Made by a program: the position numbers and the translations under genes. From a virus, in IMG/VR virus record IMGVR_UViG_3300036832_000577, positions 1 through 27,123 of that record: a stretch of DNA of 27,123 bases, one strand, 5' to 3'. Shown one piece after another: positions 2,154 to 27,123 of the stretch (positions are counted from its first letter, which is position 1; every line of letters starts with the position of its first letter). The notes under the pieces were generated by a model. The model saw only the letters and a program-made list of their open reading frames with translations. It was not told the DNA's origin and did no database searches.

Positions 2154-3087
2154 CGCATGGCGGGAGGTTCTGGCCGAGATGCTGGCGCAGGAGCGGCGCC
2201 AGTGGGACCGCGAGCGCGAGCGCATCGAGGCTCAGGCGCGGGCCATAGTGGCGGAGTTCGAGATGAAGATCGTCACCCTGCAGTCGGAGATCGACCGCCT
2301 GGTGGCCGATCGCCTCGCCGTCTTGCGTGACGGCGCGCCCGGAGCGGCGGGGCCGCAGGGCGAGACTGGGCCAGCCGGGCCGGCCGGCCCGCAAGGGGTC
2401 GAGGGCAAGGACGGCGAGCCGGGAAAAGATGGCTTGCCCGGTAAAGACGGCCAGGACGGCGCTGCGGGCGCCGTGGGTGCGATCGGGCCGCCGGGGCCTG
2501 CTGGCATAGCGGGGCCGCCTGGAAGCGATGGACGGCCCGGAGAAAGCGGCCCGGCAGGGTCGAAGGGCGATCCCGGACCGCAAGGCGAACGCGGCCTGCC
2601 GGGAGTTTTGACAATTGTCAAAGAGTGGTCCGACGCCGTGCATTACGCGGGCGAGCTCGTGATCTGCCAGGGCAGCACATGGCAGGCGCTGCGCGATACC
2701 GGCCGGGCGCCTCCGCATGCCGATTGGATATGCATCGCCAGCCGTGGCCATGACGGCACCTCGCCATCGTTCCGCGGTCTGTGGCGCGCCGAGATCGCCT
2801 ATCGGGCCTTTGATGTGGTGGCGCTCAACGGTGGCAGCTACGTGGCTACCCGCGACGATCCCGGCATCTGTCCTGGCGACGGCTGGCAGGCCCTCGCCTT
2901 CCAGGGCAAGCGCGGCCCTCCGGGGCCTCCCGGCGATCGCGGCGGCAAACCTTGGCCCGCGATCGTCGGCTGGCATATCGATACGAAAGCATATGCGGCA
3001 CGGGCCGTCATGTCCGATGGCAGCGAGGGCGCGGTGCTGGAGCTGCGGCCATTGTTCGAACAGTACCAGGCCGAGACTGCGGCTTGA
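2086..3087 (+). CDS. Collagen-like protein with N-terminal coiled coil (head/neck fibre candidate)
   Basis: 333 residues in three parts. Residues 1-80 are a highly charged amphipathic helix with heptad-like spacing ([20 protein letters not shown]). Residues 83-175 are collagen-type Gly-X-Y repeats ([16 protein letters not shown]). Residues 175-333 are a mixed domain containing two related segments, each with a short aromatic 'W..xxxY..GxLV..xGxxW/Y' pattern, resembling carbohydrate-binding 5/12-type repeats, and a short Gly-Pro stretch ([11 protein letters not shown]) near residue 280. Such proteins usually trimerise. Start choice is uncertain: ATG 2086 overlaps the portal gene by 68 bp, while the in-frame ATG at 2179 has GGGAGG at 2162-2167. 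The helix appears to continue upstream of 2179, so 2086 is kept. Its place between portal and connector suggests a virion surface fibre; that is inference. Confidence 0.8.
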
Positions 3088-3090
3088 TCC

Positions 3091-3714
3091 ATGGACGCGA
3101 TTGTCAAAATACTGACGCCGGCAACGTCGTTCGACTTCCTGACGCTGGACGAGCTCAAAATGCTCCTCGGCATCAGTCTGACCGATACGACCAAGGATAC
3201 CTTGCTGCAGGCGCAGCTGGATTCCACTGGCGATACCATCGCGCGCATGTGCAATCGGGTGTTTGCTCGCGAGGAGATCGAGGAAACGGTTTATGACCTC
3301 GGTGGCCGGCGTCTGTTTCTGTCGCATTGGCCAATCGCCGAGGCGGACATCGAAAGCGTGACGGCAAACGGTGCCGATGTCACCGGCTGGGTCATCGAGG
3401 AGCGCTCCGGGAAGCTTGAAAATATCGTCGATGGCTGCTGGTACGAACCCGTGGTCGTCACCTATTGGGGCGGCTATCTGCTGCCGGACGATGCGCCGCC
3501 AAGCCTGAAGCAGGCGCAGGAGCTGCTCGTCCGCGATTTGCGTATGCTGTCAACCGTCGGCGCGATGAGCGGTGTGCGCAGTCTCAGCCACAAGGAAAAG
3601 CGTGTGCAATTTTATGATACGTCGCAGATGCTCGCGAAAGCCGGCACCGGCACCACGCCAATCCGCGCTGCGGTCGATAATCTGCTGGAGAAGTTTATGC
3701 GGGTGGAGGCCTGA
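3091..3714 (+). CDS. Head-tail connector protein (HK97 gp6 / phiE125 gp8-like)
   Basis: 207 residues. The beginning, TPATSFDFLTLDELKMLLGI with a following string of helices (DTTKDTLLQAQLDSTGDTIARMCNR), is the usual N-terminal helix bundle of gp6-type connectors, where residues such as 'CNRxFAxEEIEETV' precede a beta region (LFLSHWPIAEADIESVTANG). Proteins of this family form the ring directly below the portal and prepare the neck for the tail. It is 3 bp downstream of the collagen-like gene and shares its stop with the next start (TGATG at 3712-3716), indicating coupled translation. Confidence 0.85.
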   Translation: MDAIVKILTPATSFDFLTLDELKMLLGISLTDTTKDTLLQAQLDSTGDTIARMCNRVFAREEIEETVYDLGGRRLFLSHWPIAEADIESVTANGADVTGWVIEERSGKLENIVDGCWYEPVVVTYWGGYLLPDDAPPSLKQAQELLVRDLRMLSTVGAMSGVRSLSHKEKRVQFYDTSQMLAKAGTGTTPIRAAVDNLLEKFMRVEA

Positions 3715-22453: not shown

Positions 22454-22503
22454 GACGCGCAATCGTCGCGTCAATCTTGGCCGGCCTTCGGGCCGGCTTT
22501 TTT
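22454..22503 (+). terminator. Intrinsic terminator of the structural operon
   Basis: A hairpin GACGCG/CGCGTC (22454-22472) is followed by a perfect 7-bp stem GCCGGCC (22480-22486) and GGCCGGC (22491-22497) with a TTCG loop, then six T (22498-22503). This is a classic rho-independent terminator, 34 bp after the last stop. Confidence 0.93.
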
Positions 22504-22517
22504 ATTGCCTCCTATAC

Positions 22518-22583
22518 TTAACAATATTTAACAATATTCTATGAATACCTACTTGACTTATAGGGCCGTCGGCCCTATATATT
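22518..22583 (+). promoter_or_regulatory. Sigma70-type promoter with UP-like repeats and palindromic operator
   Basis: TTGACT (22553-22558) and TATATA (22576-22581) are separated by 17 bp. Upstream, TTAACAATATT occurs twice in tandem (22518-22528, 22528-22538), an AT-rich UP-like element. Bases 22559-22579 are a perfect palindrome: arms of 10 bp (TATAGGGCCG and its complement) around one central T, filling the spacer and overlapping the -10. This placement is typical of a repressor operator. Confidence 0.78.
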
Positions 22584-22589
22584 AATTAC

Positions 22590-22943
22590 TAAGAGACCAG
22601 GGCGGACGTCGTAGACCCCGCAGAGACCGCCGCCCCGGACCGAACCGAAAGCCCAAAGAAGCCAAGGCTGGATGATGGGCCATTAGGAAGATTGACCAAA
22701 CCGAGAGGTTCGGTGAGCGGAGGGACCGCATGAAGCATCCCGATCCGAGGCGTCCTGGCTAGCCGCTAACGCTGGGCTCATAGAGGACCGGCAGAAGACG
22801 GATTGCCTTGTCCCCCCGCTCACCGAACTTCTCGACCAGAAAGAAAAGAGGATTGGCAGCAACTAACGGTCCTCACCGCAGCGCGGCCCCACGCGGGCCG
22901 CGTCACGGTGCGATCCACGCATCAGACAATGAAGGAAATCCAA
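22590..22943 (+). ncRNA. Structured leader / candidate non-coding RNA
   Basis: About 350 bases without a convincing gene between the promoter and ATG 22944. Bases 22703-22725 pair with 22811-22833 as a 23-bp stem (21 Watson-Crick pairs, one G-U, one A-C mismatch). Inside it, 22741-22747 pairs with 22799-22805, GTCCT (22752-22756) with AGGAC (22784-22788), and AGCC (22761-22764) with GGCT (22775-22778), giving one long extended hairpin. Before it, GGGCGG (22600-22605) can pair with CCGCCC (22630-22635). After it, CGCGGCCC (22882-22889) pairs with GGGCCGCG (22895-22902), enclosed by CACCG/CGGTG (22874-22878, 22906-22910). The last hairpin lacks a T-run. I do not match it to a known RNA family. 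Confidence 0.6.
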
Positions 22944-23153
22944 ATGACAATCCAGGAATTGGTCGAACACCTTGGCGACATGCACGCAATAGACCGCGCC
23001 CATTGCGAGGACCTTGAAATAATAATCTCGGACGACGCCGATGGCACGCGGGTCTGGGTGCATTGTGACGGCAAGCTGGTCGGGCGGTTTTACCGGATCG
23101 GCAAGCTGCATATGGACGACCGCCGAAAGGCAATCGCCGCAGTGGCGATCTGA
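22944..23153 (+). CDS. Small acidic protein, first gene of the HTH operon (unknown)
   Basis: 69 residues. ATG 22944 is preferred: AAGGAA at 22932-22937 precedes it, while the in-frame opening at 22803 lies in the structured leader. An ATG at 22929 is also in frame but has no ribosome binding site. The sequence has a helix (TIQELVEHLGDMHAIDRA), then strands DLEIIISDDADGTRVWVHCD and KLVGRFYRIGKL, ending in a helix. This compact alpha-beta arrangement is not one I can name. Stop and next start overlap (TGATG at 23151-23155), so it is translated with the HTH protein. Confidence 0.68.
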   Translation: MTIQELVEHLGDMHAIDRAHCEDLEIIISDDADGTRVWVHCDGKLVGRFYRIGKLHMDDRRKAIAAVAI

Positions 23154-23380
23154 TGACCCCATCCGAATATCGCGATCTGCTCGCGGCCCTCGACCTTAGT
23201 CAGGCTGGGGCCGCGAGGCTTCTCGGCGTCGACGAGGGCACGGCGCGGCGCTGGGCAAGCAGCTCCAAGCGTGGGCGTCATGCCCCGCCGCCGGTCGAGC
23301 GGTTCCTTAGATTTCTGCTTCTGGCACGCATCTCACCGGATGAAGTGATCAATCTGCTCGGCGATGGGATGCGGCGATGA
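23153..23380 (+). CDS. Small helix-turn-helix DNA-binding protein (XRE-like)
   Basis: 75 residues. MTPSEYRDLLAALDLSQAGA then ARLLGVDEGTARRWASSSKR is a clear Cro/CI-type helix-turn-helix: the 'LSQAGAARLLGVDEGTARRWA' helices are at residues 14-34. The following PPPVERFLRFLLLARISPDE suits a short dimerisation helix. No other domain is present. It lies in a three-gene operon downstream of a promoter with a palindromic operator, so autoregulation is a reasonable inference. Proteins of this kind are common in alphaproteobacterial phages, and a role as repressor or as Cro-like factor is not decided by the sequence. Confidence 0.8.
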   Translation: MTPSEYRDLLAALDLSQAGAARLLGVDEGTARRWASSSKRGRHAPPPVERFLRFLLLARISPDEVINLLGDGMRR

Positions 23381-23751
23381 TAGAATGCAAGCACGTACTC
23401 GGTTCCGATGAAATTGATCTGACCGATTGGTCCTTTTACACAGAACCGCATGGCGACCGAGACGACAAGTGTCTTGGCGCGGCCGTGACGCAGGTCATTC
23501 GTGAGGAATTTAAGCGCGATCCTCCATGGCTCGATTTGCCGAGCCTCAGCGAATCGTGGGTCGGGAATGCCTTAACGCTCGATGTCTGGCTGCCACTCGG
23601 CAAGGATCAGGACCATATCGTTAAATATCGCGCGACGCTGGATGAGATCATCAGCGAAGAGCTCACCAATGGTGAGAACATGATGCACATCGCGGATGAA
23701 CTCGATCGCCTGGCCCAAAAAATTCGCGATCACCAGCCCGTCCGGTTCTAG
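23377..23751 (+). CDS. Hypothetical protein, third gene of HTH operon
   Basis: 124 residues, ATGA overlap with the HTH gene. It starts MIECKHVLGSDEIDLTDWSF, contains an AAVTQVIREEFKRDPPWLDLPS segment, a strand pair WVGNALTLDVWLPLGKDQDH, and a long C-terminal helix (NMMHIADELDRLAQKIRDHQ). Acidic overall. I do not recognise a family. Its coupling to the HTH gene suggests shared regulation; a partner or anti-repressor role would be speculation. Confidence 0.68.
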   Translation: MIECKHVLGSDEIDLTDWSFYTEPHGDRDDKCLGAAVTQVIREEFKRDPPWLDLPSLSESWVGNALTLDVWLPLGKDQDHIVKYRATLDEIISEELTNGENMMHIADELDRLAQKIRDHQPVRF

Positions 23752-24086
23752 TGTCCTTCTATTGCCGCTAACGCGGCCATCTTGAAGCCGGAGGGAGCGA
23801 AGCCTAAGTTCCCGGCGAGCGGCCAACCATAAGCGGTGTCCCCAGGAGAACCTGTCCCCCCAGCCCTCCGCACCGCATCGGAGGCCGCTCGCCTCTCCCT
23901 CTCCCCCCCTGTTCCCCCAGAAGGCGCACCACGGGCCTCCGTAGACGCACAGAGAGGCATTCTGGTGGCATCGGCGTATAGCCTGCGGCGTTGCTCGCTA
24001 TACACGCGGCGTATAGCCTGCGGCGCCGATTGCTATCACGTAGGATTTCTGGTATCTTGGTCGTTCTGGGAAACTCCTTCTGATTG
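23752..24086. other. Non-coding stretch with hairpin, C-rich tract and GTATAGC repeats
   Basis: About 335 bases without a supported gene. CCTCCG (23865-23870) pairs with CGGAGG (23879-23884). A pyrimidine tract follows, with CCC at 23897-23899, seven C at 23903-23909 and five C at 23914-23918, so the minus strand could form a G-quadruplex. A 19-nt direct repeat beginning CGGCGTATAGCC occurs at 23972-23990 and 24007-24025, with an inverted GCTATAC at 23997-24003 between them; the whole is framed by ATCGGCG (23970-23976) and CGCCGAT (24024-24030). Confidence 0.6.
23970..24030. repeat. GTATAGC repeat cluster
   Basis: Two direct 19-nt copies containing GTATAGC, 35 bp apart, plus one inverted copy between them, enclosed in a 7-bp inverted repeat. 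The arrangement could be a protein-binding site or a folded transcript element; sequence alone cannot decide. Confidence 0.75.
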
Positions 24087-24114
24087 GCCGGCCCGTGACG
24101 GGGCCGGCTTTTTT
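24087..24114 (+). terminator. Intrinsic terminator closing the HTH cassette
   Basis: GCCGGCCC (24087-24094) pairs with GGGCCGGC (24101-24108) around a 6-base loop, followed by six T (24109-24114). The sequence is nearly a copy of the terminator at 22480-22503. Confidence 0.9.
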
Positions 24115-24253: not shown

Positions 24254-24395
24254 GTCCGCCGACGACCGTTGGCGACCGTTAACAATCGTTTACGACCGCG
24301 CGGCGCAAACATCCCTTGCTTTTTCAAGCCGCTAATCCCAATCTTATTGTCCGCCGACGACCGTTTACGACCGCCGTCGGCCGTTGACAACCGCG
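24254..24395 (+). repeat. Two arrays of 10-bp repeats (integrase arm-type sites)
   Basis: Block 1, 24261-24300: GACGACCGTT, GGCGACCGTT, AACAATCGTT, TACGACCGCG. Block 2, 24356-24395: GACGACCGTT, TACGACCGCC, GTCGGCCGTT, GACAACCGCG. Consensus about RACRACCGTT. The blocks also share GTCCGCCGACGACCGTT (24254-24270, 24349-24365), 95 bp apart. Placement just upstream of the integrase gene and helical-turn period suggest binding sites for the integrase N-terminal domain. Confidence 0.75.
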
Positions 24396-26197: not shown

Positions 26198-26383
26198 TCA
26201 GCGCTCCTGTTCGATCCTCACCAGCTTGGTCCTGGTGGCATCGATCTGTATCCTGACGTAGCCGCTGAGCTTCCGAAGCGCATTTAGTTCGATCTCGGCC
26301 TGACTGATCTGGGCCTCGCAAACGTGCTCCCTTGCGCGAATAGGTCAAAGTCTCATTCTCCACATCGCGCGCTTCGCCCTGCC
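26198..26383 (-). pseudogene. Remnant of a minus-strand gene, 3' end
   Basis: Read on the minus strand, 26344 down to the stop at 26198-26200 gives 48 residues (AREHVCEAQISQAEIELNAL then RKLSGYVRIQIDATRTKLVR, ending IEQER) with mostly G/C third positions and a coiled-coil look, but no start codon: TGA at 26345-26347 closes the frame. Directly upstream another frame reads DVENETLTYSR. This looks like the frameshifted tail of a gene whose 5' part has been replaced by the pentamer array. It is the only minus-strand coding signal I find credible, and it is weak. Confidence 0.35.
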
Positions 26384-27123
26384 CCGCCTCGCCACGCCGC
26401 GCCTTGCCTGCCGCGCCGTGCCGGGCCGAGCCAGGCCCTGCCGCGCCATGCCAAACCGCGCCATGCCTTGCCCCGCCTTGCCCCGCCATGCCTGCCGCGC
26501 CGTGCCGGGCCGAGCCAGGCCTCGCCGAGCCATGCCGGGCCTCGCCTAGCCCCGCCTCGCCTCGCCTCGCCTCGCCTGCCGTGCCGGGCCGAGCCAGGCC
26601 CTGCCTTGCCGAGCCCTGCCTCGCCTGGCCCAGCCTTGCCTGCCGCGCCTCGCCTCGCCTGGCCATGCCTTGCCTTGCCGAGCCCTGCCTTGCCTGGCCT
26701 CGCCGCGCCACGCCGGGCCCCGCGCCGGGCCGCGCCGCGCCATGCCTGCCGCGCCTTGCCTGCCGTGCCGGGCCGAGCCAGGCCCTGCCGGGCCACGCCG
26801 CGCCTTGCCTGCCGCGCCTCGCCTGGCCATGCCCTGCCTTGCCAGGCCATGCCTTGTCGCGCCACGCCCCGCCTCGCCTGGCCATGCCCCGCCGCGCCGG
26901 GCCGCGCCGCGCCATGCCTGCCGCGCCTTGCCTGCCGTGCCGGGCCATGCCGGGCCCTGCCGGGCCCCGCCGCGCCTTGCCTGCCGCGCCTCGCCTGGCC
27001 ATGCCTTGCCTTGCCGAGCCCTGCCTGGCCTGGCCCAGCCGAGCCGCGTCCAGCCAAGCCCTGCCGCGCCTGCCTTGCCGTGCCTCCCACGCCCCGCCTT
27101 GCCCCGCCATGCCGCGCCGGGCC
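26373..27123. repeat. Degenerate pentanucleotide tandem array (NGCCN), runs off the window
   Basis: About 750 bases of 5-bp units in which GCC is fixed and the two flanking bases vary (CGCCT, TGCCC, GGCCG, AGCCA and so on), roughly 150 units. The register slips now and then through a 4-base unit (TGCCT GCCG CGCC). Longer phrases recur, such as GTGCCGGGCCGAGCCAGGCC near 26416, 26500, 26580 and 26766. All minus-strand frames are open because the repeat almost lacks stop codons there; these are not genes. The end of the array is outside the window. Confidence 0.93.

Follow-up and report, generated by a model that had tools for sequence, protein, structure and literature searches.

Positions 22553-23751 of the analysed DNA, a 27,123-bp IMG/VR record hereafter called the window, hold an operon of recognisable kind behind a leader that is both real and unusual: a core promoter built around a perfect palindrome, about 355 nt of folded non-coding sequence and then an orphan gene (p69), a gene for a small HTH protein and a second orphan gene (p124). 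Judging from comparison with relatives and from analogy with Aca proteins, p69, the HTH gene and p124 are quite probably under the control of the operator promoter, with an Aca-type HTH dimer repressing its own operon. The fuller reading, an autoregulated acr-aca-like phage operon whose unusually long structured 5′ leader also has some role at the RNA level, we regard as evenly poised.

The record represents a phage with a contractile tail, as its genes for a tail sheath, a Mu-like baseplate and tail fibres show, and its left end is cut inside the structural genes, so that replication genes are not visible. The region runs from a terminator (22479-22505) through promoter, leader, p69, HTH gene and p124 to a second terminator (24086) and a tyrosine integrase gene:

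22479-22505, + strand, intrinsic terminator ending the upstream tail operon (terminator scan)
22518-22537, + strand, tandem pair of TTAACAATAT, 16 bp ahead of the −35 (read in the sequence)
22553-22583, + strand, promoter: TTGACT at 22553-22558, 17-bp spacer, TATATA at 22576-22581 (matching layout in relatives)
22559-22579, + strand, predicted palindromic operator, TATAGGGCCG-T-CGGCCCTATA, a perfect 21 bp (10+1+10)
22588-22943, + strand, untranslated leader of ~355 nt with a presumed start (non-coding in six frames; fold z −5.2)
22702-22834, + strand, large hairpin, 133 bp in total: arms 22702-22726 and 22810-22834, 83-nt interior
~22848-22875 and ~22877-22912, + strand, two smaller hairpins before the gene (z −3.7 for 22835-22943)
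22944-23153, + strand, p69, orphan gene, 69 aa, ATG at 22944 (coding statistics)
23153-23380, + strand, 75-aa HTH protein resembling Aca10 and Aca1, probably an autorepressor (profile and predicted-fold matches)
23377-23751, + strand, p124, orphan gene, 124 aa (coding statistics)
24086-24114, + strand, terminator behind the operon (terminator scan)

Coding statistics class p69, the HTH gene and p124 all as coding. Neither p69 nor p124 has a PHROG, Pfam or NCBIfam match or any relative in the libraries searched, and the structure of p69 predicted without an alignment is of low confidence (pLDDT 66). Such absence of relatives is common among anti-CRISPR genes, although it proves nothing. Three sets of repeats lie further downstream. 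The non-coding sequence that separates p124 from the terminator has a tandem pair of ~35-bp units (CGGCGTATAGCCTGCGGCG; 23972-24040). Repeated units resembling GACCGTT closely precede the integrase gene (24254-24395) and are perhaps arm-type integrase sites. Beyond the integrase, a long low-complexity array (26375-27113) consists of 5-bp units that contain GCC, such as GCCGT and its variants, together with larger imperfect repeats.

The palindromic operator and its candidate repressor

The preliminary description had proposed a promoter whose 17-bp spacer holds a perfect palindrome with 10-bp arms, and this arrangement is present exactly where it was placed; as read from the sequence, the palindrome at 22559-22579 occupies the spacer and reaches into the start of the −10. 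A generic σ70 scan does not list the promoter at 22553-22583 and reports the palindrome alone, as a stem, so that support for the promoter comes from relatives with an equivalent layout and not from that scan. The tandem TTAACAATAT pair might serve as an UP element or as another site for a protein.

Relatives of the HTH protein are encoded by many IMG/VR phages, by Bradyrhizobium phage ppBeUSDA76-2 and in genomes of a Bradyrhizobium-like family. Among 101 non-redundant loci, 21 carry a TA-N-TA palindrome directly behind a TTGAC-like −35. The corresponding controls give 0 (equal-length stretches downstream), 1 (far upstream) and 0.75 (shuffles); it is important to note that this site definition was devised after examples had been seen, so that the test, though fairly controlled, is not blind. 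It replaced a broader count of palindromes upstream of HTH genes, which proved too noisy. The palindromes vary by lineage (TAGGGCC..GGCCCTA, TACGCAG..CTGCGTA, TAGGCCC..GGGCCTA, TAGGACA..TGTCCTA), and operators that differ in sequence among lineages yet remain palindromic constitute, on sequence comparison, covariation in the DNA itself. A Bradyrhizobium-like 16S query led to a family of which 352 genomes were covered; of the 26 HTH loci examined there, 2 carry the operator (L408 and L411) and none has the leader of the window.

By profile, the best solved-structure match of the HTH family is Aca10 (7xi5; E 1.2e-4 and 8.7e-5), followed by Aca1 with weak values (E 0.03-0.07). The predicted structure of the window's HTH protein (pLDDT 90.7) retrieves Aca1 at ranks 1-6 in Foldseek, with modest E values of 0.012-0.047 and 33-37% identity over 55-57 columns, and places Aca2 and Aca10 lower. 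Since HigA2 and MqsA tie with the Aca proteins against the same structure in the VIA-align table, the fold alone is not decisive for an Aca assignment. The Arg of a GER motif conserved in the HTH family aligns with Arg44 of Aca10, which is required for binding, and the Aca10 target is a 21-bp palindrome of perfect 10-bp arms and one central base, situated between −35 and −10 (PMC9410881). The palindrome at 22559-22579 has the geometry and promoter position of that operator. Two hallmarks of an Aca system are present, namely a small HTH protein with kinship to established Aca repressors and an inverted repeat inside its own core promoter, and the reading of the operon as acr-aca-like follows from the Aca10 profile match, the operator's geometry and position, and the aligned Arg44. 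In the scheme we propose, the promoter with the palindromic operator as its −35/−10 spacer would drive p69, the HTH gene and p124, and the HTH protein, as an Aca10/Aca1-type dimer, would bind the palindrome and shut off its own operon.

A long folded leader

From the expected transcript start (~22588) to the ATG at 22944 lie about 355 nt that score as non-coding in all six frames, in keeping with the ~350 gene-free bases first noted here and excluding a decayed gene inside the leader. No terminator was found by the terminator scan between leader and p69. Together with the promoter palindromes of relatives and the Aca resemblance, this backs the earlier suggestion that the stretch is the leader of the HTH operon under the operator promoter.

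Relative to shuffles, the whole leader folds with z −5.2 and the large hairpin with z −5.6. The flanks are folded too, and preferentially on the transcribed strand: z −3.7 on the + strand against −1.1 on the − strand for the stretch 3′ of the hairpin (22835-22943), and −2.2 against −0.3 for the stretch 5′ of it. In a scan with 120-nt windows, those of the leader range from +1.2 to −3.2 around a background mean z of approximately −0.25. The 25 positions of each hairpin arm include 24 pairs (23 Watson-Crick and one G-U) and one A·C. The 23-bp stem originally described (22703-22725/22811-22833) was correct in its one mismatch and one G-U, but the true stem is slightly longer, at 22702-22726/22810-22834. 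Its claimed rarity in random DNA is borne out: with one mismatch allowed, 200 dinucleotide shuffles of the 426-nt region reach at most 15 paired positions, and the next-best stem anywhere in the window has 19. Three nested stems had also been reported inside the hairpin; the 83-nt interior folds no better than shuffles (z +1.02), and those stems accordingly carry no weight.

Searches for homologues of the leader or hairpin came back empty across every collection covered, the fetched IMG/VR loci included. The window has no Rfam 15 match at the gathering score, as the first reading had anticipated, and the weak matches (E up to 5) fall within the promoter region or the terminator that precedes it. 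By blastn there is no homologue of leader or hairpin in annotated phages and plasmids, and none of the leader in 80 baseplate relatives and 160 integrase relatives; a single-sequence covariance model retrieves none in two sets of loci and none in 385 alphaproteobacterial genomes, the latter under strict filters and without a positive control. A homologue missing from these collections may still exist in nature, and the window's own or very near records were possibly left out of them. A search with the stem pattern gives 9 matches in IMG/VR and one site each in 5 of the 385 alphaproteobacterial genomes, and a laxer stem scan adds matches mainly inside open frames, plus one iteron hairpin (L401). 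One locus, L265, has at 2977-3101 a true 16-bp hairpin of similar size which fills the gap before a small gene and has the stem core CGGTGAGCGG in common with the window hairpin; an HTH gene of the family lies 2.3 kb away. We do not claim it as kin, the loops being unlike (shuffle p 0.26-0.35).

The operons of the inspected relatives begin differently, with the first gene roughly 10-60 nt past the promoter as against about 355 nt in the window. About a dozen of them carry a short leader hairpin, e.g., AAGGGCAATCCTGCCCGG, adjoining the ribosome site, and nothing like it occurs in the window. The form CATCAGCAAGGGCAATCCTGCCCGGCGATGGAGAG stands by the ribosome site in L270, L271, L272, L276, L277, L278, L282, L283, L330 and L331, with variants in L265 and L287. 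This short hairpin is conserved despite differing operators; for 3 of its 7 pairs one sequence shows both partners changed, a slight signal, and six loci scanned give no Rfam match. A role as an operator mimic is unsupported, as L276 combines a different operator with the identical hairpin.

Competing accounts of the large hairpin

The hairpin region is most likely leader RNA. In the proposed scheme a transcript beginning near 22588 would carry a leader of ~355 nt, formed by one long hairpin and two smaller ones ahead of the p69 ribosome site. As the weakest step, the folded leader may then tune output post-transcriptionally, through ribosome access or mRNA stability. A still bolder version, which we think rather doubtful, is an Aca-type operon regulated twice, by the repressor and by a leader hairpin that sets translation or stability, with p69 and p124 as new anti-CRISPR or anti-defence proteins.

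Alternatively, the hairpin could be functionless, an inserted inverted-repeat element or a template-switch inverted duplication that landed in the leader of an ordinary operon. This account, somewhat unlikely in our estimate, draws on the sharp ends of the repeat, on relatives that lack the hairpin and on an interior no more structured than chance, and the flanking 7-mers ACCAAAC and ACCAGAA agree at 5 of 7 positions, a weak hint of target duplication. It sits less well with the folding of the hairpin's flanks and with the failure to find a further copy, whether elsewhere in the window, among annotated phages and plasmids or in the fetched loci.

The hairpin might instead act as DNA, as a pRN1-type stem-loop replication origin whose replication protein would be encoded beyond the ends of the truncated record. 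We consider this improbable: size and shape do recall the pRN1 origin (PMC4234260) and the iteron hairpins that other phages carry near primase-helicase genes, hairpins that also give the best, if weak, matches to the structural model; but the arms contain no tandem iterons, the hairpin sits between a promoter and a gene, and the record, cut at its left end, has no replication gene. The similar-sized hairpin of L265 likewise has no recognisable replication module nearby within the sequence read, and a D5_N match is absent from its record.

A stand-alone phage RNA, as suggested at first, here acting in trans, would suit a strong promoter-like element followed by a long folded non-coding stretch; it is very improbable and loses its footing with the missing terminator before p69, with the equivalent promoter of relatives serving an operon and with the lack of any Rfam match or homologue.

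Should the acr-aca-like reading of the operon hold, the HTH family and its changing operators would flag many small phage operons for a search for anti-defence genes, and p69 and p124 would be testable candidates. A functional leader would likewise bring a long RNA element into operons of a class whose control is known chiefly at the promoter.

Comparison with known systems

The pRN1 stem-loop origin spans ~100 bp with a 21-nt stem and a 58-nt loop (PMC4234260). Origins of this type and the window hairpin share a length of ~100-130 bp, a long stem, a large loop and a lack of sequence conservation; unlike those origins, the window hairpin is not found 3′ of a primase-helicase gene but has tail genes upstream and p69 downstream; with the record truncated on its left, the phage may carry a gene of that kind elsewhere. 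Nine stretches of other loci contain long inverted repeats of ~106-153 bp whose arms are tandem 8-10-mers (L309:313-418, L308:909-1029, L313:3640-3761, L315:3631-3761, L295:4539-4667, L307:3176-3304, L401:2549-2659, L198:9773-9903 and L201:767-919). Those of L295, L309 and L401 adjoin primase-helicase-like genes, the centres of several are alternating GC/CA, and related loci differ in repeat sequence while the shape is kept. Some of the phages that carry them also encode this HTH gene. These tandem-repeat hairpins probably serve as origins of replication, of the type known from pRN1 or P4.

In a 2024 Nature paper, Aca2 is reported to control the mRNA that encodes it by way of hairpins close to the ribosome site. 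That system and the window have in common a structured 5′ leader joined to an Aca-type repressor operon. Unlike the Aca2 system, the window has one long predicted hairpin, which stands ~110 nt from the start codon.

The window is set apart from acr-aca operons by its 355-nt folded leader, and no anti-CRISPR gene is recognisable in its operon from PHROG, Pfam or NCBIfam. With such operons, above all acrIC7-acrIC6-aca10 of Pseudomonas citronellolis (PMC9410881) and those of the Aca families tested in PMC9410906, it shares small genes accompanied by a small HTH gene behind a core promoter that contains a perfect inverted repeat.
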